Positions 5,992 through 20,758 of a stretch of 20,758 nt of DNA are shown here, piece by piece (position 1 is the first letter of the stretch; every line of letters begins with the position of its first letter). Made by a program: the position numbers and the translations under genes. The stretch covers positions 1 to 20,758 of the forward strand of contig PEWQ01000043.1 of the NCBI GenBank assembly GCA_002780065.1, given 5' to 3'. The DNA is from Candidatus Hydrogenedentes bacterium CG07_land_8_20_14_0_80_42_17. GTDB lineage: Bacteria; UBA8481. Under the pieces are notes generated by a model. That model was not told where the DNA came from. It ran no database searches and saw nothing but the letters and a program-made list of their open reading frames with translations.

Positions 5992-6408
5992 CTATTTAAT
6001 ATTCGAAAAATGTTTTATAACTATTTGAACAATATATGTTGCATCTTCTATAGCTCGTTTCGCATCTTCTTCTCTATAAATCTCAGTCGGAACGTAATCA
6101 ATATCACCGTAAAAAGATAGTTCTCTTTCTTTTCTCAACCATCTTGAAATTTCTATTATACGACTTGCTTCTTTAGAAATTTCATCAGGAAAACGATTCG
6201 AATATTCTTTGATTATTTCTCCAACATCATGCCACTTAGGAGGATCAATGCCGGTAAACCGTAATAATCCTTTTAGTGTTAGTTCAACTATTTCTTGAGC
6301 TTTCCTTATTACAACAGCATACGCCTTATTCTGATAAAATAATGGTAACGCTTTCATACGTTCGTTGGACATTTTTAAATAGCTTTGAGCAAGTTGATCA
6401 TTTGTCAT
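5992..6408 (-). CDS. HEPN-domain protein (PF05168-like)
   Basis: A 138-aa all-helical protein of the HEPN superfamily, encoded just after a nucleotidyltransferase gene with a 4-bp ATGA overlap. This is the classic minimal NT/HEPN arrangement. Recognisable HEPN features are the helix around AYAVVIRKAQEIVELTLKGL (29-48), the PPKWHDVGEII segment (56-66), and the family-typical YGDIDYVPTEIYREEDAKRA near 112-131. The R-X4-6-H ribonuclease motif of HepT toxins is not evident: the expected region reads SRWLRKERELSFYG with no following His. It may therefore be non-toxic or act by substrate binding, as proposed for other PF05168 proteins. The gene pair is visibly more AT-rich than the pilus genes on either side, which suggests acquisition. 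Function is unknown beyond the family. Confidence 0.75.
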   Translation of the reverse strand: MTNDQLAQSYLKMSNERMKALPLFYQNKAYAVVIRKAQEIVELTLKGLLRFTGIDPPKWHDVGEIIKEYSNRFPDEISKEASRIIEISRWLRKERELSFYGDIDYVPTEIYREEDAKRAIEDATYIVQIVIKHFSNIK

Positions 6409-6896
6409 AATTCAATTCTATCACCAAAAACATAATTATCTTTTAAAACCCAAAAATATCCTCCACAACGATATATCCTCTTTGCACCCATCTCTTTCAT
6501 TCTGTCCTGTAACTTCTTTAAATACTTCTGAAAAAAATTATCTCTGTCGAAAAGTATCGCTGCTCGATCAGTCATGTCAAAAAATAATGGACTGCCAAAT
6601 TCGACTTCACGTCGAGTTTTAAAGATAGGAGAAAGATAAACTGCCCAACCCTGTCGGCTCATTTCTTCTAATTTTTCCTTCATAGGTTTTTCAACCAAAT
6701 GAACAAACTCGTCTACACGAGGTATTCTTCCCGAAGGTAATGGCTCTGCAATAATCAAAATGTCAATGTCTGATTCAGTAGTAGAAGTTTCAGAAGCAAT
6801 TGAACCAAAAATTGCTAAAGTGATCAATCTATCTCCATAACTTAACTGAATTTTTTGGCTCAATTCTTTAAGCATTGTTTCGACTAAATGTTTCAT
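6405..6896 (-). CDS. Minimal-type nucleotidyltransferase (pol beta superfamily), partner of HEPN protein
   Basis: A 163-aa protein with the signature GSX10DXD: Gly31-Ser32 and Asp43-Asp45 in IFGSIASETSTTESDIDIL. This places it in the DNA polymerase-beta-like nucleotidyltransferase fold, such as MNT antitoxins that AMPylate HEPN partners. It is longer than typical MntA proteins (about 100 aa). The extra C-terminal region after about residue 85 includes FFDMTDRAAILFDRDNFFQKYL, as found in the larger NT proteins paired with PF05168 HEPN. It overlaps the HEPN gene by 4 bp, so the two are translationally coupled. No clear Shine-Dalgarno is seen. It sits between the PorV-like gene and pilB in the same orientation and is AT-rich, which suggests an insertion into the pilus cluster. 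It could be an NT/HEPN antitoxin-toxin pair or a nucleotide-modifying pair. Confidence 0.78.
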   Translation of the reverse strand: MKHLVETMLKELSQKIQLSYGDRLITLAIFGSIASETSTTESDIDILIIAEPLPSGRIPRVDEFVHLVEKPMKEKLEEMSRQGWAVYLSPIFKTRREVEFGSPLFFDMTDRAAILFDRDNFFQKYLKKLQDRMKEMGAKRIYRCGGYFWVLKDNYVFGDRIEL

Positions 6897-13116: not shown

Positions 13117-13501
13117 CGTTCATATCCGCAATATAAAATATGTAAGTATCCATCTTGTCGGCACCGGTTCCCCATTTAACGTTTAGAGTCACTTTCTTCA
13201 ATAAATCAGGTTTCTCTTCCGTAACTGAAGTAACCCATGAAAATTTGGAAAGGTCAGACATATTCGGAAGCAGAGCATTAAAATTTCCACTGGCAGATGT
13301 CACACCTGAATAAGGCTGAGAATAAATTTCATCTGCTTTTGAAGATGCAAAAATATAAGCACTTTCTAAACTGCTCCGGGAATTCGCAGCATTTATAAGA
13401 CGCGGAAGAACAGATATCATTACATAAGAACCGATAAACAAAATCGCCATAGCGACCATCACATCTACAAGTCCAAAACCTCTTTTACTTTTCATAGTCA
13501 T
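13109..13501 (-). CDS. gspI: GspI/PilV-like minor pseudopilin
   Basis: A short pseudopilin (about 130 aa from Met at 13501) with a compact leader, MTMKSKRG|FGLVDVMVAMAILFIG. This is the class III prepilin signal followed by a hydrophobic helix and an Asn/Ser-rich spine (LPRLINAANSRSSLESAYIF), as in GspI/PilV. I prefer the start at 13501 because it gives a 4-bp ATGA overlap with the gspH stop and an 8-residue leader. An in-frame ATG at 13522 would add seven residues. The conserved Glu at +5 is replaced by Asp, a rare but chemically similar change. GspI is a core tip-complex subunit that docks GspJ and GspK, which matches its place in the H-I-J-K order. Confidence 0.82.
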   Translation of the reverse strand: MTMKSKRGFGLVDVMVAMAILFIGSYVMISVLPRLINAANSRSSLESAYIFASSKADEIYSQPYSGVTSASGNFNALLPNMSDLSKFSWVTSVTEEKPDLLKKVTLNVKWGTGADKMDTYIFYIADMNDD

Positions 13502-14160
13502 AACGACACACACTTCTTCCATGGATAACTGGGATTGCTAAACCAAGGTTCCCATGCGTCGGCTGCGACACAACCAACATTATAAGCTGTCGGAGTAGAA
13601 CTCATCATGAAGAACATAATTGAGTTAAAGTCATTTGCATTTGAAGCAGTAGTTCCATAAGCGGCCGATTTAGGACCAACCTGCATAACTGTTTTGAAAG
13701 AACCGCAAGTCGAATCTATGTTAAGCACCGTATGAGCTGTAAAGACTATTGACTTCTGACCTGTCGTTCGAAATGTGCCCGCATTGTCGTCGTCCATGAA
13801 CCCTTTGATCTCAACACTCTCTACAGCCGGAGCAATAGCAGAACCTACCATTTTGCCATCAACAGTAAGCCATGCGCTTTCATTGTCTAAATCCAGAACA
13901 AGCGTGACATCTTTGCCAAGTGACCTTGTGAGGTTTTTTGCTTCTCGAGATTTTGTCAAAATTGCGGCAGCAAATCCCTTTGAAGCAATATTTACATAGA
14001 ATTGTGAATAGGAAGCGTTTACAACTGAAAGTAGAATTCCAATTATTATTATTACAACCAAAAGTTCGATTAAACTGACACCACGAGTGGCAGTCGATCT
14101 CGAAGATGAATATTTTCTAAATTTAATATTCATAGCATCATTCATTTCAGCAATAATCAT
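13498..14160 (-). CDS. gspH: GspH/FimT-like minor pseudopilin
   Basis: A 220-aa pseudopilin with the signal TRG|VSLIELLVVIIIIGILLS (Glu at +5) and the GspH-like spine FYVNIASKGFAAAILTKSREAKNLTRSLGKDVTLV, then a beta-rich globular domain with several Cys residues toward the C-terminus. It is the first gene of the pseudopilin cluster. The annotated ATG at 14160 gives a 27-residue leader. In-frame ATGs at 14145 and 14133 give 22 and 18 residues and would leave room for a 5' UTR if the candidate promoter just upstream is real. No Shine-Dalgarno is convincing for any of the three. The role is in the pseudopilus tip/initiation complex. It is separated from the secretin gene by two TA-like cassettes. 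Confidence 0.82.
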   Translation of the reverse strand: MIIAEMNDAMNIKFRKYSSSRSTATRGVSLIELLVVIIIIGILLSVVNASYSQFYVNIASKGFAAAILTKSREAKNLTRSLGKDVTLVLDLDNESAWLTVDGKMVGSAIAPAVESVEIKGFMDDDNAGTFRTTGQKSIVFTAHTVLNIDSTCGSFKTVMQVGPKSAAYGTTASNANDFNSIMFFMMSSTPTAYNVGCVAADAWEPWFSNPSYPWKKCVSL

Positions 14161-14196: not shown

Positions 14197-14242
14197 TATA
14201 TTTTTAGACTGCCTTCCAGCATTTGAAAAAAAATTTGCATAA

Positions 14243-14272
14243 GGGGTCAGGCTTGAACTTTTTTACTTTTTC
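14243..14272. repeat. Cassette-border repeat, copy 1
   Basis: A 30-bp element beginning GGGGTCAGGCTTGAAC and ending ACTTTTTC on the plus strand. It is identical over all 30 bp to copies at 15249 and 15904 and in the same orientation. It lies just downstream of the AbiEii-like gene, separating it from the pseudopilin promoter. It shares the flanking ATAA with copy 2. Confidence 0.9.
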
Positions 14273-14296
14273 TGTCTTGTCCCAACGCATTTTAAT

Positions 14297-14980
14297 TTAT
14301 AAAAGTTTATGATATAAAAATTTTGCGAATCTCGCATAGAAAGCATAAAAATCTCCGGCATTAAACTTAATGAATATTTCAGGAAATAACTTTTTGTTAT
14401 CTTTGGTAAAATTAATTCCTTCTTCCATTTGAAATGCAACTGTTGCAGGGTCATCAAATATGGCATCTTTATGTTTTGCATTTTTGTATATGGTTTCAAA
14501 ATTGCAATCTGAAAAATATTTACTAATGAAATATAAGTCTAAGTAATCTTTTATCTCTCTTCTGCTGACAACAGCACATAATTTGTTTGAAGCTATATTT
14601 GTTATGGTATCAACTGATACATAATGTTTGTTTTTAAAGTAATATTTCTGACGGTTCTCTTTTATTGATAACAAATCAATGACAAAATCAACTTTTATGT
14701 TTCTAATCAATAATGATAGAAAATTAGTGTTTTCTTTAAGTGTAATTGTTTCATTCAGCCATATCCTCTGTAATTCAAAACCGATATCGCTTAAATCAAC
14801 CTTTGCTGTTGTAAAGAGATCTATGTCATTCGATTGTCTGTGGTTTAGATAAAAAACAGAAAGAGCAGTTCCACCTGTTAGAAAAAAATTGTTTTCGATA
14901 TCCGATAGTTCCATTAATTTAACCAGCACTTTCCTCTGCATCGGAAACATATAAAACTTTTTATTTTCGTTTAATTTCAT
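14297..14980 (-). CDS. AbiEii/AbiGii-family nucleotidyltransferase (toxin-like)
   Basis: A 227-aa protein of the AbiEii family (PF08843-like), nucleotidyltransferases that act as toxins of AbiE-type abortive-infection or toxin-antitoxin systems and may block translation by modifying tRNA. Visible motifs are LTGGTALSVFYL (34-45) and RQSNDIDLF (48-56) carrying the DxD pair, a third Asp in KVDFVIDLL (96-104), and SRREIKDYLDLYFI (139-152), the conserved C-terminal K/R-x-D-Y-x-D-L motif. Length is at the short end for the family. It overlaps the upstream small gene by 20 bp, so the pair is coupled. The region is strongly AT-rich (one sampled 60-bp stretch is 30% GC, against 55% in a sampled secretin stretch), suggesting separate origin. 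All main motifs look intact. Confidence 0.85.
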   Translation of the reverse strand: MKLNENKKFYMFPMQRKVLVKLMELSDIENNFFLTGGTALSVFYLNHRQSNDIDLFTTAKVDLSDIGFELQRIWLNETITLKENTNFLSLLIRNIKVDFVIDLLSIKENRQKYYFKNKHYVSVDTITNIASNKLCAVVSRREIKDYLDLYFISKYFSDCNFETIYKNAKHKDAIFDDPATVAFQMEEGINFTKDNKKLFPEIFIKFNAGDFYAFYARFAKFLYHKLL

Positions 14981-15227
14981 TGTAAACCTGAATCATTCTT
15001 TTCCATTTTTTTAGACTGTAATCAGATAATTTCAGTAAAGGTAATAAATCAGCTATCTCGGATATGCTAAAATATTTAAATGTGTCAACAACTCTTCCAT
15101 GTTCAAGAAATCTCCCAAGCACCCATTTGTATCCGTCATTACACTTATTTTGCTTGATATATTTTTTTAAGCATTTTTCATCCGTAAACCGCGGATAATC
15201 CCAGAATACTGCATTCAAATAATCCAT
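14961..15227 (-). CDS. DUF6922-like small protein, putative antitoxin partner of AbiEii
   Basis: An 88-aa protein starting MDYLNAVFWDYPRF. The pattern FWD...aromatic, then GRFLEHGRVVDTFKYFS, then LKLSDYSLKKWKRMIQVY resembles the DUF6922 family, which commonly precedes AbiEii-type nucleotidyltransferase genes. That is recognition by memory rather than a search. It has AGGAG (15241-15237) about 9 nt before its ATG and overlaps the AbiEii gene by 20 bp, as expected for an antitoxin-first operon. It begins only 21 nt downstream of cassette repeat copy 2, so its promoter must lie in or before that repeat, unless it depends on read-through. It lacks the winged-helix length of classical AbiEi. Confidence 0.65.
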   Translation of the reverse strand: MDYLNAVFWDYPRFTDEKCLKKYIKQNKCNDGYKWVLGRFLEHGRVVDTFKYFSISEIADLLPLLKLSDYSLKKWKRMIQVYNEIKRK

Positions 15228-15248
15228 TTATAAATTCTCCTATAATAA

Positions 15249-15285
15249 GGGGTCAGGCTTGAACTTTTTTACTTTTTCAATCCTG
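15249..15285. repeat. Cassette-border repeat, copy 2 (extended to 37 bp)
   Basis: The 30-bp core (15249-15278) is identical to copies 1 and 3. A further 7 bp (AATCCTG, 15279-15285) match copy 3 only. It overlaps the hepT stop codon: the last codons of hepT (GLKK-stop) are encoded within the repeat. It separates the MntA/HepT module from the DUF6922-like/AbiEii module. Confidence 0.9.
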
Positions 15286-15607
15286 TTTCCAGTTGCTCAA
15301 GTAGTTGAGGCACATCCTCGACAGCAACTGCCCACACTTCACGTGGATCGATATTGGCATAATCATGCGTCACAATGTTGCGCATGTCTATAATGTCCCT
15401 CCAGGGAATGTCAGGATATTTTGAGCGCTCTTCATCTGACAATTTCTTCGCCGCCTCACCAATAATTTGGATATTCCGAACAACAGCGTCAAACCTCATT
15501 CTATCCGTAATGAATGATTCAAAGGTCTGGTCTTTGGCATACTCGATAATACGCGAACAACTGTCTCGAATGTCATTGAGATAAGCAATTTGGTCATGCA
15601 ACATCAA
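15269..15607 (-). CDS. hepT: HepT-family HEPN ribonuclease toxin
   Basis: A 112-aa HEPN protein of the HepT (DUF86) family, the RNase toxin of MNT/HEPN type VII toxin-antitoxin systems. The active-site motif RX4HXY is fully present as RNIVTHDY (Arg76, His81, Tyr83). In characterised systems the Tyr is AMPylated by the MntA antitoxin. The upstream helix FDAVVRNIQIIGEAAKKL is also family-typical. The gene overlaps mntA by 14 bp. Its stop codon and last residues (GLKK) are encoded within cassette repeat copy 2, so the repeat boundary runs into the toxin 3' end. The toxin looks complete and potentially active. Confidence 0.9.
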   Translation of the reverse strand: MMLHDQIAYLNDIRDSCSRIIEYAKDQTFESFITDRMRFDAVVRNIQIIGEAAKKLSDEERSKYPDIPWRDIIDMRNIVTHDYANIDPREVWAVAVEDVPQLLEQLETGLKK

Positions 15608-15893
15608 TCAAATCCTTTTCAACATAAGGCTTAAATTCGTGACGCAATGACTCTGCAAGCACAAGGTCCACTTTTCTTCCAATAAGATCTTCGAGAAGAT
15701 GAAGAAGTCCTATGTGGCGATTAAAGAATCCCTTCAATCCTCTGTCCTCAAACTCAACAAGAAAATCTACATCGCTCTCGGGTCGATCCTCGCCTCGCGC
15801 AATAGATCCGAAAAGGGCAAGGCGCTTCACACCGAATTTGTCAATATCAGTGCGATGAGCACGAATTATCTCTATTATCTGGTCACGTATCAT
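15594..15893 (-). CDS. mntA: MntA-family minimal nucleotidyltransferase antitoxin
   Basis: A 99-aa minimal nucleotidyltransferase with perfect GSX10DXD: LFGSIARGEDRPESDVDFLV (Gly29-Ser30, Asp41/Asp43) and a third acidic residue in KVDLVLAE (Asp76). This is the AMP-transferring antitoxin that neutralises HepT. It precedes hepT with a 14-bp overlap, the standard order. Its ATG is 10 nt downstream of repeat copy 3 with no clear Shine-Dalgarno, so the repeat occupies what would be its promoter/leader. GC content is close to that of the pilus genes, unlike the neighbouring AbiEii cassette. Confidence 0.9.
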   Translation of the reverse strand: MIRDQIIEIIRAHRTDIDKFGVKRLALFGSIARGEDRPESDVDFLVEFEDRGLKGFFNRHIGLLHLLEDLIGRKVDLVLAESLRHEFKPYVEKDLIDVA

Positions 15894-15903
15894 AATCTTT
15901 TTT

Positions 15904-15940
15904 GGGGTCAGGCTTGAACTTTTTTACTTTTTCAATCCTG
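15904..15940. repeat. Cassette-border repeat, copy 3 (extended to 37 bp)
   Basis: The 30-bp core (15904-15933) plus AATCCTG (15934-15940) is identical to copy 2. In the minus frame it reads SGLKK-stop, the same tail as hepT, which suggests a relic of another cassette's 3' end. It sits between the minisatellite and mntA. Confidence 0.9.
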
Positions 15941-15949
15941 ACGCATAAA

Positions 15950-16076
15950 GCACAGGCGAGGCGTCCATTAACGCGAAGCCGTCCATTGACGAGAGGCCGT
16001 CCATTGACGCGAGGCGTCCATTGACGCGAAGCCGTCCATTGACGCGAAGCCGTCCATTGACGCGAAGTGCCTGTGC
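15950..16076. repeat. 18-bp minisatellite bounded by an 8-bp inverted repeat
   Basis: Six contiguous units of consensus GTCCATTGACGCGAAGCC run from 15963 to 16069 (18, 18, 17, 18, 18, 18 bp). Units 4 and 5 are identical and the others differ at one to three positions. The array is bounded by GCACAGGC (15950-15957) and its complement GCCTGTGC (16069-16076). Each unit with its preceding C contains CGTCCATTGACG, able to form a 4-bp stem with loop CATT. There are no spacers, so it is not a CRISPR array. Translated it gives SRQWTA-type repeats with no sign of being a real protein. Confidence 0.9.
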
Positions 16077-16114: not shown

Positions 16115-19100
16115 CTACTTTGCCGTTATTTTGCCGCGTATCTTCGCCAATAATTCAGGAGTAAATGTCGGGACGTCCAGAAGCTCATCTAAATTCGAAA
16201 ACTTTCCGTAGCTCGCTCTGTATGCGATCAACAGCTTTATATTCTGCGTCGAAAGTTCCGGAATATTTTTCAGTTCAGCTTCAGTCGCGGAATTTATATC
16301 TATCTTCGCAGAGGTTGAAACAGCAGGCGCCGAAGGCAAAGGAGAAGTTCGAGATGAATATGGCGGCGGTGGCGCAGTCGCCTCTGAACTTCCGCCAACA
16401 GTCAAACGGTCTCGTATCTTCGCCAAAAGTTCCGGAGTAATTCCCGGCACCTGAAGCAGATCGTCAACCGATGAAAAATTCCCATAGCTCTTTCTGTACG
16501 CAACAATAAGTTTCACGTTCTGAATTGTGAGGTCTGAAACGGTCAGTAACTGCGCCTCTGATGCAGTGTTGATGTTGACTCGACCTACGCTTGAATAAGT
16601 CGGCTGTGTCTGAGGAGTCGGTGCCGAATACGGCTGATTTACAGTAGCAGGAGCCGCAGTGCTTATTGAAGTAGGTTCGCTTGATACTGTGACATACTCT
16701 CGAATCTTTCCGTAAAGATCCGCAGTAATGCCAGGAACATCTATCAGTTGATCAGTTGTCTGAAAATTTCCGTACGTATTTCTGTACGCAGTAATCATTC
16801 TGGCATGATGATCCAAAATTCCCGGAACCGTCTTCAATTGCTCGATTGTTGCAGTATTCAAATTTACTTTACTAGAAGTCGTTGCGGCAGGCGTCGCAAC
16901 AGCCGGCTGAGCATTGACAGAAGAAGTCGGTTGAGGAGTAGGCGGAACCGCAGGCTGAGGTAAAGGCGCATTTAAATTCGATACAGGAGAAACCCGCAGA
17001 TAAGGATTAACTTTATCCAAAATTCCAGGATTCATTCCCGGCACTTGAAGCAGATCACTCGTCTTCTCAAATTTTCCGTTCTGGTCGCGATACTTCACAA
17101 TAAGCTCCGCAATGTGCGCAGGCATTCCAGGAACAGTTCTCAATTCAGCGGCCGTAGCACTGTTAATGTCGAAAGAAGTTAGCGAACCCAAGAAAGGCGG
17201 CTGAACCGTGGGTTCTTGAACCGTGGGTTCTTGAACCGGGGGTTCTTGAACCGTGGGTTCTAATGTCGAAGGCGCAGGTTGAATCGGAGCAGGGGTATTC
17301 GAAGGCGCAGGTTGAATCGGAGCAGGGGTATTCGAAGGTGCGGTAAAAGTCGGAGCAATAGTCGTTGACGCAGGAGGAGTCGTAGGTGTCGTTTCAGGAG
17401 CAGGCGCAATTCTCGTTTGCGATTCTTCAGTCGCACCAAATTCCCGAGCACCGTCAACTCCGACTACATAGTTGCTCCGCTCAAACGCCTGTCTCCTCAT
17501 CGCGGCTCTCCTCTGAGGATTATTTACAAGCCAGCGGCGCCCCGACCAATCTGCCGGGAAACTGACAAGATATTTATACCGATTGATCTCCTCCTCCATC
17601 TGGAGTTCTTGAGTTGATGGATAAATTATTCGAGGTGAAATCAAAATCAAAACTTCGCTATTCACTTCACTCTTCGTTGTGTTTTGGAAGAGCTTTCCGA
17701 TTCCGGGGATGTCTCCGAGCAAAGGAACTTTTACGACTCCATCAGAAACATTCTTAGTTATGAGTCCTCCAAGAATTAAAGTCTGACCGTCAATTACATC
17801 AACATTAGTTGTGACAGTGCGGTTCTGAACATTCAAAGGAGCATTGGCCACACGCTGACCGAGGTCAGAACCAATCACAACCGAAACATCCATTCTGACG
17901 TTGTCGGAGCCGCGCGCCACGCTCGGAGTAATCGTAAGCGTTGCCGGCACAGTCTGCGAAGTCCAATTAGTCGAAGTTGATGATGCTCCGCCTGACGTTG
18001 TAGTTGTCTGTTGAGGATAGTAAACAATCCTGCCAACATCTACAGTTGCTTGCTTGTTGCTTCTAGTGACAAGTTTCGGAGCGGATACAACCCGAGCATC
18101 AGCATTGCTGACCAACGCACTCACAGTCATCTGTAGATTATTTCGAGCAATTCCCAATGACAAACCATTTCCGTCAAAAGAAGCCTGAGCTCCACCGTAA
18201 TCCGGCGCAGTATACGGGCTGTAAGGCAAAATGCTTATTGCAGAAAGATCGGGTCTGAATCCCCAAGTAAATCCGAGGTTCTTCTGATCATTCAATACGA
18301 CCTCGACAACTGCGGCTTCAATCAGCACTTGCGGCGTCGGCTGGTCTAAATCATCAATCATCTTCAATGCGCTCTGTATCTGCTCAAAAGAGCCCTGCAT
18401 CATGACTGCATTCATCTGATCATCGAACCCAATATTATTGTCTGCTAACTGAGTATGCCGTACTATCGCCGCTTGCAATTTATCGATATTGCTCGGGTCG
18501 TAATATCTCAGCGGCCTAATTGCAGAATGCAGCTTCTTGTCAAGCGCAGAGACGAACTGATCAATCTCATTGAGAACTATCGAATCCGCGGAGATCGAAA
18601 GCGAATTCAATTCTGTTATCTCAACAACCTGCGCTTCAGGATAAAATTCTTTGAGAGCGGAAGTAATCGAAGTAAGTTCGACATTTTTTATTGGAACAAG
18701 ATGAATTCTTCTGGAGTCGATCTGGCGGATCATTTCAAGAGCTTCAGCCACACCTTCTTCACTACCGAGAAGAACTATTCCAATGCCGTTCGGCAATTGA
18801 GTCGCCTGAACCGAGCCGAAGAGCGTAGTAACCAGAGACTGCGCTTCCGCCGCGGAAATTCGCGCAAGCGGCACAATCTTCCACATCAATCCATTCTCTA
18901 TCTGCGACAGCAATTTTTCCGCACCGTCGAGACTCTCCTTCGTTCCTTGCGCGGTGAGAATATTTCCATTCGAAATAGTCTGCACAGAGACATTTGGATA
19001 AAACGCAGTGACTATTGCCGAAGCATCAGCAGTATTCATTCTGCCGTATTTCAAAACTCGAACGTCGCCGGTGACGTCCATCTTCTTCACAAAACTCAAA

Positions 19101-20758
19101 GCTTCATCAATACGTTTCGGCTCACCGTAAAGCATCAAAATATCAGAACCAAAAGCAGTTCCAGTAACACTCGTCACTCCAACTGAAGGCATAAACGTCT
19201 GAAGCGGAACTGTAAGCTCATCGGCTTTTCTGTAAACCGGTCTGTAAATGACAACCTTGCCGGAAGTATCGAGCTCATCCCAAAGATTCGCGAGTTCATT
19301 CAATCTGTGAATTGCTCCGCGCACCAAAACTTTTTCAAAGCCCTGAGAGCCAACAGTTGTAGTCTGAAGATCAGGATAGATCGAAGTAATTGTATTTACG
19401 AGATCAGTAATGGAACTAAGATGACTAGCTTGGAAAACACGATACGGAGTAATTGTGTCGAACTCGGCAATCGACTTTTCGATAAGGTCGAAAGCATCCG
19501 AAGAGTGAGAAAATACCAGAAGCTGACTACGAGGAGCATACGGCGGAGCCATCGCAATGATGTCCTGCGACCACTGCGGCCATAAAAGAGCCAATTCGGA
19601 TTTAATCTCACTTACCGTTCGATACTTAACTGTAATAAATTTCCAGAAAGGCTTGTCAGGTCTGTGATGATCGCGATACAGCTCGTCAATATTCTTGAAG
19701 TAATTCGCTACCCTATCGAGGTCAGCTCGGGTTCCCCACATTCCAACAACATTTCCCTGAATAACCCAATAATGAGCTATAAGATTTCCTGTGACGGTAA
19801 ATGTTTTCGCTTCTTCAGAAAGATTGATTCCGCCCGCCTGTCCCTGCCAAATTCCGGAAAGCGGCGCCCATTTGAAGATATACGAATCAAAAACAATTAC
19901 GTCTTCATCGATCTTTTTAAATGTTTCTTCAACTTTAGAGAGCTGATCAGGCGCTCCCTGAACAAGAATAGCCTGAAAACCTCTCTCTCCAGTCACAGTG
20001 CTGAACTTAATTCCAGGGAAAAGTTCAACAAGAGCTGTCTGCAAATTTTCAGCAGTCTGATGCTTTGGTTTTAGAACAATCCTATCGCTGGTTTTTTCCA
20101 GTTGCTTCAAAATCGCATCGATCTCATCGAGCACAGACTGATCCGCAAGCACAATCAAAGCATTTACATCATCCATAACAATCATAGAATTGGTTAATCC
20201 AGGATAAAGCGTGGTAATTAAAGTGGTAAGATTATCAGCCGAGATAACAGGATTCGTAAATATTCTATATGGAGAAAATGCAAATTCAACGCGATCCAAC
20301 ATTGGAATAACGCGTTTAATCCGCTCCCACGTGGCAGAATAAGCCCAAATCATTATTTTAGAATCTGTGGAATTCACATACATCATTTCGCCAACTCGAT
20401 TGTTTTGGTTCATGACATTGTCGCGTAACCACTTACCAACTATAGTTGCCGGCGATTTCTTGAGTTCTATCTTATAGAATTGAAGTTCTCTCTGCCCTGC
20501 AAAAGTATCGTTGTCAAATGACCTAATCAGTTCTTCAATCTGAACATGCTCTCTTGTAGTTGCAAAAGCAATTAAAGACTTCAAAGAGTCTTCAGCAACA
20601 GAACGAATAAGCTGAACATTCCTGCCCACTTTTATAGTTCTTCCGGTTGAAGGATCCACGTATTCCTGAATCTCATATCTCACTTCATCAATTGTATTGC
20701 GAATTAAATCTACAAGCTGAGAAGGAAGAAGGTATTGTAAATAATAAACCTTAACGTA
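16115..20758 (-). CDS. Very large secretin with tandem N-modules and four C-terminal ComEA-like HhH domains (partial, 5' end outside window)
   Basis: Outer-membrane channel of the PilQ/GspD family. The frame stays open to the window edge: upstream of the GTG at 20683 it reads VKVYYLQYLLPSQLVDLI, itself part of an N-module, so the true start lies outside. Numbered from that GTG (1522 aa): about a dozen repeated secretin N-type modules cover 1-781, for example YRIFTNPVISADNLTTLI and YRVFQASHLSSITDLVNT. The secretin core is about 785-1023 (QVLIEAAVVEVVLNDQKNLG, then VPLLGDIPGIGKLFQ and LILISPRIIYP). A Pro/Thr linker with tandem repeats spans about 1090-1165. Four HhH domains lie at about 1171-1232, 1272-1333, 1368-1428 and 1460-1522 (VNLNTATIEQLKTVPGI type). 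Ordinary secretins are about 600-800 aa with far fewer N-modules and no HhH. It probably gates the pilus and may bind DNA. Confidence 0.92.
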   Translation of the reverse strand, partial: YVKVYYLQYLLPSQLVDLIRNTIDEVRYEIQEYVDPSTGRTIKVGRNVQLIRSVAEDSLKSLIAFATTREHVQIEELIRSFDNDTFAGQRELQFYKIELKKSPATIVGKWLRDNVMNQNNRVGEMMYVNSTDSKIMIWAYSATWERIKRVIPMLDRVEFAFSPYRIFTNPVISADNLTTLITTLYPGLTNSMIVMDDVNALIVLADQSVLDEIDAILKQLEKTSDRIVLKPKHQTAENLQTALVELFPGIKFSTVTGERGFQAILVQGAPDQLSKVEETFKKIDEDVIVFDSYIFKWAPLSGIWQGQAGGINLSEEAKTFTVTGNLIAHYWVIQGNVVGMWGTRADLDRVANYFKNIDELYRDHHRPDKPFWKFITVKYRTVSEIKSELALLWPQWSQDIIAMAPPYAPRSQLLVFSHSSDAFDLIEKSIAEFDTITPYRVFQASHLSSITDLVNTITSIYPDLQTTTVGSQGFEKVLVRGAIHRLNELANLWDELDTSGKVVIYRPVYRKADELTVPLQTFMPSVGVTSVTGTAFGSDILMLYGEPKRIDEALSFVKKMDVTGDVRVLKYGRMNTADASAIVTAFYPNVSVQTISNGNILTAQGTKESLDGAEKLLSQIENGLMWKIVPLARISAAEAQSLVTTLFGSVQATQLPNGIGIVLLGSEEGVAEALEMIRQIDSRRIHLVPIKNVELTSITSALKEFYPEAQVVEITELNSLSISADSIVLNEIDQFVSALDKKLHSAIRPLRYYDPSNIDKLQAAIVRHTQLADNNIGFDDQMNAVMMQGSFEQIQSALKMIDDLDQPTPQVLIEAAVVEVVLNDQKNLGFTWGFRPDLSAISILPYSPYTAPDYGGAQASFDGNGLSLGIARNNLQMTVSALVSNADARVVSAPKLVTRSNKQATVDVGRIVYYPQQTTTTSGGASSTSTNWTSQTVPATLTITPSVARGSDNVRMDVSVVIGSDLGQRVANAPLNVQNRTVTTNVDVIDGQTLILGGLITKNVSDGVVKVPLLGDIPGIGKLFQNTTKSEVNSEVLILISPRIIYPSTQELQMEEEINRYKYLVSFPADWSGRRWLVNNPQRRAAMRRQAFERSNYVVGVDGAREFGATEESQTRIAPAPETTPTTPPASTTIAPTFTAPSNTPAPIQPAPSNTPAPIQPAPSTLEPTVQEPPVQEPTVQEPTVQPPFLGSLTSFDINSATAAELRTVPGMPAHIAELIVKYRDQNGKFEKTSDLLQVPGMNPGILDKVNPYLRVSPVSNLNAPLPQPAVPPTPQPTSSVNAQPAVATPAATTSSKVNLNTATIEQLKTVPGILDHHARMITAYRNTYGNFQTTDQLIDVPGITADLYGKIREYVTVSSEPTSISTAAPATVNQPYSAPTPQTQPTYSSVGRVNINTASEAQLLTVSDLTIQNVKLIVAYRKSYGNFSSVDDLLQVPGITPELLAKIRDRLTVGGSSEATAPPPPYSSRTSPLPSAPAVSTSAKIDINSATEAELKNIPELSTQNIKLLIAYRASYGKFSNLDELLDVPTFTPELLAKIRGKITAK
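17201..17260. repeat. 15-bp tandem repeat in the secretin linker
   Basis: About four units of TTCTTGAACCGTGGG (one with GGGGG variation) encode repeated EPTVQ/EPPVQ. It is an in-frame length-variable linker between the secretin core and the HhH domains. Confidence 0.85.
17266..17331. repeat. 33-bp perfect tandem duplication in the secretin linker
   Basis: Two adjacent identical 33-bp units (17266-17298 and 17299-17331) encode NTPAPIQPAPS twice. The identity at every base implies a recent duplication. Confidence 0.9.

Follow-up and report, generated by a model that had tools for sequence, protein, structure and literature searches.

Two toxin-antitoxin (TA) modules in the genome of a Candidatus Hydrogenedentes bacterium appear to have been inserted one after the other at a single site, each insertion duplicating about 35 bp of its target, which would have been a solitary REP sequence. 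The probability of this reading is put at roughly 0.6. It has long been asked how small TA modules pass between genomes when they encode no recombinase, and the anatomy of the repeats left around the two modules points to one way in which they might do so.

Two modules between three direct repeats

A 30-bp sequence, GGGGTCAGGCTTGAACTTTTTTACTTTTTC, occurs three times without mismatch and in the same orientation in the window (the whole 20,758-nucleotide stretch of DNA analysed), at 14243-14272, 15249-15278 and 15904-15933, always on the plus strand. A reversed-pattern control of the search gave no matches, and a chance origin for a triple 30-mer within 20 kb is far out of reach. An earlier sequence-only reading had reported these three copies and a 37-bp identity between copies 2 and 3 (the 30-mer followed by AATCCTG), both of which are borne out; it passed over a 34-bp identity between copies 1 and 2, ATAA followed by the 30-mer. 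The left copy consists of ATAA and REP copy 1 (14239..14272, plus strand) and bounds an AbiEii cassette, and the right copy consists of REP copy 3 and AATCCTG (15904..15940, plus strand) and bounds an MntA-HepT cassette. The middle copy (15245..15285, plus strand) has both extensions, its left flank being that of copy 1 and its right flank that of copy 3.

Each interval between repeats holds a single two-gene module on the minus strand and nothing else, an arrangement that had been read from the open reading frames and that Pfam confirms for AbiEii, MntA and HepT. Copies 1 and 2 bracket the AbiEii module at an interval of 1006 bp: abiEii (14297..14980, minus strand; PF08843, E=4.5e-14) encodes a nucleotidyltransferase toxin of 227 aa, and its partner is an 88-aa ORF (14961..15227, minus strand), the presumed antitoxin. 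The label "DUF6922-like" once given to this ORF finds no support in Pfam, where no family is hit at E<=1, or in NCBIfam, where no hit is relevant. Copies 2 and 3 bracket, at 655 bp, hepT (15269..15607, minus strand; PF01934, E=3.6e-29), for a HEPN ribonuclease toxin of 112 aa, and mntA (15594..15893, minus strand; PF01909), for a minimal nucleotidyltransferase antitoxin of 99 aa. The type VII identity of this pair comes from the adjacency of PF01934 (HepT) and PF01909 (MntA), the NCBIfam scores of 46.7 bits for HepT and 42.6 bits for MntA both lying below the cut-off of 60. Gene content and order are those of described MNT-HEPN (MntA-HepT) systems (PMC2701414, PMC7641770). The repeat lies at or over the 3' end of each module, as had been noted: the hepT stop codon falls within REP copy 2, and abiEii ends 24 bp from copy 1. 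The difference in base composition likewise holds, with G+C at 0.29 in the AbiEii cassette, 0.43 in the MntA-HepT cassette and 0.44 in the remaining window, and fits separate origins. Reading of gene and domain content found no transposase or integrase between the repeats, in line with the cassette-like units proposed earlier, and with all three copies on the plus strand the inverted ends of a transposon or MITE are absent as well.

The window HepT has no close homologue in 386 genomes, the best match (46%) being the paralogue on contig C137 of the same genome, and none in viral contigs or plasmids; the window AbiEii has no match among plasmids. The array lies in a type II secretion cluster, with a pseudopilin gene on one side (13498..14160, minus strand; PF07963) and on the other a secretin gene with C-terminal HHH/T2SSK-like repeats (16115..20683, minus strand). 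The secretin is very long, at 1522 aa, and four helix-hairpin-helix/T2SSK-like repeats follow its secretin domain. Next to copy 3, at 15956-16065 and between inverted GCACAGGC and GCCTGTGC, is an 18-bp tandem repeat, GCGTCCATTGACGCGAAGC, with relatives on contigs C103 and C145. A compact hairpin at copy 3 was also considered: TTCAATCCTGACGC resembles the inverted REP core at 12/14 positions, which makes the hairpin possible and is too weak to carry an argument. The same secretion cluster contains a second, different HEPN-MNT module (5992-6896) between PorV-like and pilB/gspE-type ATPase genes; no direct repeat flanks it, and a genome with the same gene order (G001) lacks it at that place.

The repeat is a REP

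The window repeat belongs to an ordinary REP family of the genome. In 2.39 Mb on 207 contigs there are 28 copies with <=3 mismatches, or 29 with a shorter core, spread over about 16 contigs. Inverted pairs of about 130 bp, or REPINs, account for most of them and occur on C36, C53, C87, C126, C134, C138 (two), C196 and C206. Contig C131 carries an intact Y1 transposase gene with an inverted REP on both sides (PF01797, E=7.6e-15; NCBIfam REP_Tyr_transpos, E=4.9e-19, its 68.6 bits falling under the model cut-off of 80), whose stop codon lies within a REP. The sequence-only reading had likened the repeat to sequences near REP-associated elements and proposed a search for a REP-associated tyrosine transposase in trans; the likeness was sound and the search succeeded. 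Dispersed intergenic copies, inverted pairs of about 130 bp and a flanked RAYT gene are equally the features of the known REP/REPIN and RAYT (TnpA-REP) system (PMC6006769). Known REPINs carry no genes, whereas the window copies are unpaired, unlike most copies in this genome, point one way and are separated by TA modules.

The REP was found in none of 59 other genomes searched, and an exact 24-mer of the repeat has no match in 85,000 species genomes. A looser search with the core recovered nine contigs, and in two MAGs among them, a Thermodesulfobacteriota bacterium (L122) and an unclassified bacterium (L126), the core GGGGTCAGGCTTGA forms the ends of complete RAYT elements.

Could the modules be the cargo of a REP-ended element, mobilised in trans by the genome's own RAYT? 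In favour, the genome's RAYT does lie between inverted REPs, and ends akin to these delimit complete RAYT elements in other phyla (L122, L126). The ends of RAYT elements and REPINs are inverted, though, while those of the cassettes here have the same orientation, and no REP pair outside the window has a TA module between its members. Such an element is held to be very improbable, and RAYT-borne cargo is rejected for the orientation of the repeats.

The REP has also been tried, and rejected, as a TA-specific integration site. Outside the window its neighbours are ordinary genes, with a HicB-like ORF on C207 as the one exception, and of about 25 sites sampled in G386, a Syntrophomonadaceae genome that has a related REP, only one has a TA gene nearby. 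The earlier proposal of a repeat-based insertion rule, with a cassette-specific site, is not supported by these neighbours, and the check that it invited, whether other copies end TA or defence modules, revealed no general association in the genome. An integron-type common recombination site fails too: the direct repeats around TA modules on C137 and C107 (see below) are unrelated to the REP, and most REP copies have no cassette.

Alternatively, a RAYT may have inserted three REPs independently at the 3' ends of genes, beside TA modules that were already there. REPs are indeed common at such ends: many overlap the stop codons of ordinary genes in G386, the stop codons of hepT and of the C131 transposase are both inside a REP, and solitary REPs also follow a PEBP-family gene and the HicB-like ORF. 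Three solitary copies in one orientation within 1.7 kb are nevertheless hard to expect from about 17 loci in 2.4 Mb, the other copies being mostly inverted pairs. Independent insertion also leaves aside that AATCCTG follows the REP in copies 2 and 3 and in no other copy of the genome, and that TA modules without REPs have direct repeats too. It is accordingly regarded as improbable.

At L045:6251-6478 a HicB-like ORF with weak Pfam matches, next to a sequence resembling tRNA-Leu, takes its C-terminus from a solitary REP into which it reads; a hicA was not seen there. In G386 (L169-L188) solitary REPs repeatedly provide the last codons and the stop of genes, whose proteins end in GQA.

Proposed serial insertion with target duplication

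The preferred reading of two successive insertions starts from a single ATAA-REP-AATCCTG between the pseudopilin and secretin genes. Insertion of the 88-aa ORF and abiEii would have duplicated ATAA and the REP (34 bp), and insertion of mntA-hepT the REP and AATCCTG (37 bp), in either case perhaps by a staggered cut or by strand invasion, followed by fill-in. A single target struck twice in this way leaves a middle copy with both flanks and outer copies with one each, as is seen. We infer that the repeats arose as duplications of the target in the course of insertion. Restriction of AATCCTG to copies 2 and 3 is what would be expected if both arose locally, while the 4-bp ATAA match is weak evidence, because ATAA precedes the GGGG of other REPs as well.

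One feature fits this reading poorly. On the inner side, each duplication ends where the REP does, which would be a coincidence if targets were chosen at random and favours either a nick at the REP boundary or recombination between REP copies; it is mainly for this that confidence is kept near the value given above. In a recombinational origin, a circle or fragment carrying a REP and a TA module would have joined a resident REP by RecA-type homologous recombination. IS-adjacent arrays built by translocatable units provide the model. Such an origin would account for the inner edges and would draw on a repeat that is dispersed in about 29 copies, but 30 bp is short for homologous recombination, and the 7 bp beyond the REP that copies 2 and 3 have in common go unexplained. 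It is judged unlikely, if the strongest of the alternatives, and the repeats around other TA modules bear on it further. Empty sites, which the earlier reading had suggested seeking, were not found for the array: none of the genomes compared is related closely enough, and the only one with the same gene order has a different gene beside the pseudopilin gene. This result weighs against the reading, as do the second HEPN-MNT module of the window, which lacks flanking repeats, and E. coli ccdAB (see below).

Direct repeats around other TA modules

In the same genome a second MntA-HepT (C137) lies within a perfect 42-bp direct repeat and a second AbiEii, in an HTH-abiEii module (C107), within a perfect 26-bp one, and both repeats are unrelated to the REP. 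The insertion "rule" proposed earlier seems to come down to the copying of whichever target was struck, since these modules carry unlike direct repeats.

HepT homologues were collected from 386 genomes spread over the domain, and 40 loci in other genomes were scored as enclosed or not by a direct repeat scoring >=18, with same-size intervals in the same regions as controls. Twelve of the 40 were enclosed, against a control mean of 2.0 and maximum of 7 in 20,000 draws; a first pass that included the two loci of the genome itself gave 14/42 against 49/1450 control intervals. AbiEii loci behave similarly, 8/30 being enclosed against 52/1835 intervals (2.8%; Fisher p=2.4e-6). The contrast is if anything understated, because some control positives are themselves TA modules, such as a hicBA within a 100-bp repeat (L196).

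The flanking repeats are mostly 26-170 bp long. Many have sharp ends (for example 28/28, 31/31 and 33/33 bp) and others have diverged copies (78/94, 98/107); both features, together with the complete plasmid records among the loci (L273, L274), argue against assembly artefacts. A few (L198, L204, L196) look like dispersed repeats, which suits recombination between resident repeats, but non-repeated host sequence duplicated around other TA modules would need another cause.

Wherever the origin of a repeat is legible, it proves to be host sequence, either the end or start of a gene or the 3' end of a tRNA. On a Haliovirga abyssi plasmid (L274) the 33/33-bp repeat is the last codons of a HAD hydrolase gene, at C137 it is the leader that runs as far as the next gene's start codon, and at L225 it is the 3' end of tRNA-Phe. 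A tRNA 3' end is probably the source at L202 too, judging by resemblance, although ARAGORN called no tRNA there. With the REP itself a host sequence and the repeats differing between modules, the window repeat would be consistent with being the target's own sequence. Locus L225 (6185-7123) has three tandem tRNA-Phe 3' ends with mntA-hepT between the last two, an arrangement that resembles tandem att sites.

The clearest parallel is L214:5800-8543, where the first ~40 bp of a glycosyltransferase gene are present in four copies of the same orientation. The gaps hold three TA modules (mntA-hepT, hicB-hicA and a parE module), and the intact glycosyltransferase gene (PF00535, E=4.7e-29) continues from the last copy only. 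This is the architecture of the window with a different target, without a REP and with a third cassette. TA arrays such as these two would grow at one site because each insertion duplicates its own target. A wider proposal, that MntA-HepT, AbiEii, HicBA and ParDE modules share a transposase-free mode of entry which duplicates 26 to ~240 bp and lets arrays grow in place, is offered tentatively, as somewhat less than an even bet. Empty sites for the other cases were sought in the family of G179 and the genus of G318, single-genome families, and none was found.

Relation to known systems

The nearest precedent is the restriction-modification (R-M) system, for which insertion with long target duplication was proposed, as the available accounts present it, from two related genomes (Nobusato et al. 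2000, Gene 259:99; PMC3874152, PMC3031569). There too, in those accounts, a small addiction-type module without a transposase sits between direct repeats of its target that vary in length, duplications being put in review at the order of 100 bp (PMC3874152, PMC3031569). In the present case TA pairs of type VII and of the AbiEii kind (type IV) are involved, the duplications mostly span 26-170 bp, and arrays form. A search of the open-access literature for long target duplication by TA modules returned only reviews citing the R-M work, and the general process appears new to us; whereas the R-M case, as those accounts give it, compared two related genomes, this one is argued from the anatomy of the repeats, with no empty site found.

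IS26 translocatable units and integron cassette arrays likewise place cargo modules between same-orientation copies of one sequence, but the window array has no IS or integrase, and the separating sequence varies between arrays (the REP in the window, a glycosyltransferase start in L214). The mobility of MNT-HEPN modules is on record, operons being among their insertion sites; the lysine operon of Thermus thermophilus, for instance, contains one in HB8 and none in HB27. The study in question does not use the term "direct repeat" or describe a duplicated target (PMC2701414).

If about one third of chromosomal MntA-HepT and AbiEii modules sit in host duplications, their insertions could be read directly from genomes, dated by the divergence of the repeats and used to predict empty sites, and R-M and TA modules would enter genomes by a common route. 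Duplication keeps the struck gene intact, which would explain how TA modules are able to land at gene starts and tRNA ends and to stack at one site.

Long target duplication would be one route among several for TA modules. Comparison of E. coli ccdAB at folA-apaH with strains that lack the module left ~6% of the query (~84 bp) unmatched and nothing duplicated, which shows that some TA insertions depart from the pattern. On enterobacterial and Aeromonas plasmids, MntA-HepT has Tn3-type or mercury transposon genes as neighbours. On a Picosynechococcus plasmid (L271:1852-1889) CRISPR-like repeats, GTTTCAGTCCCGTAGTCGGGATTTAGTGGTTGGAAAG, surround an MntA-HepT module.
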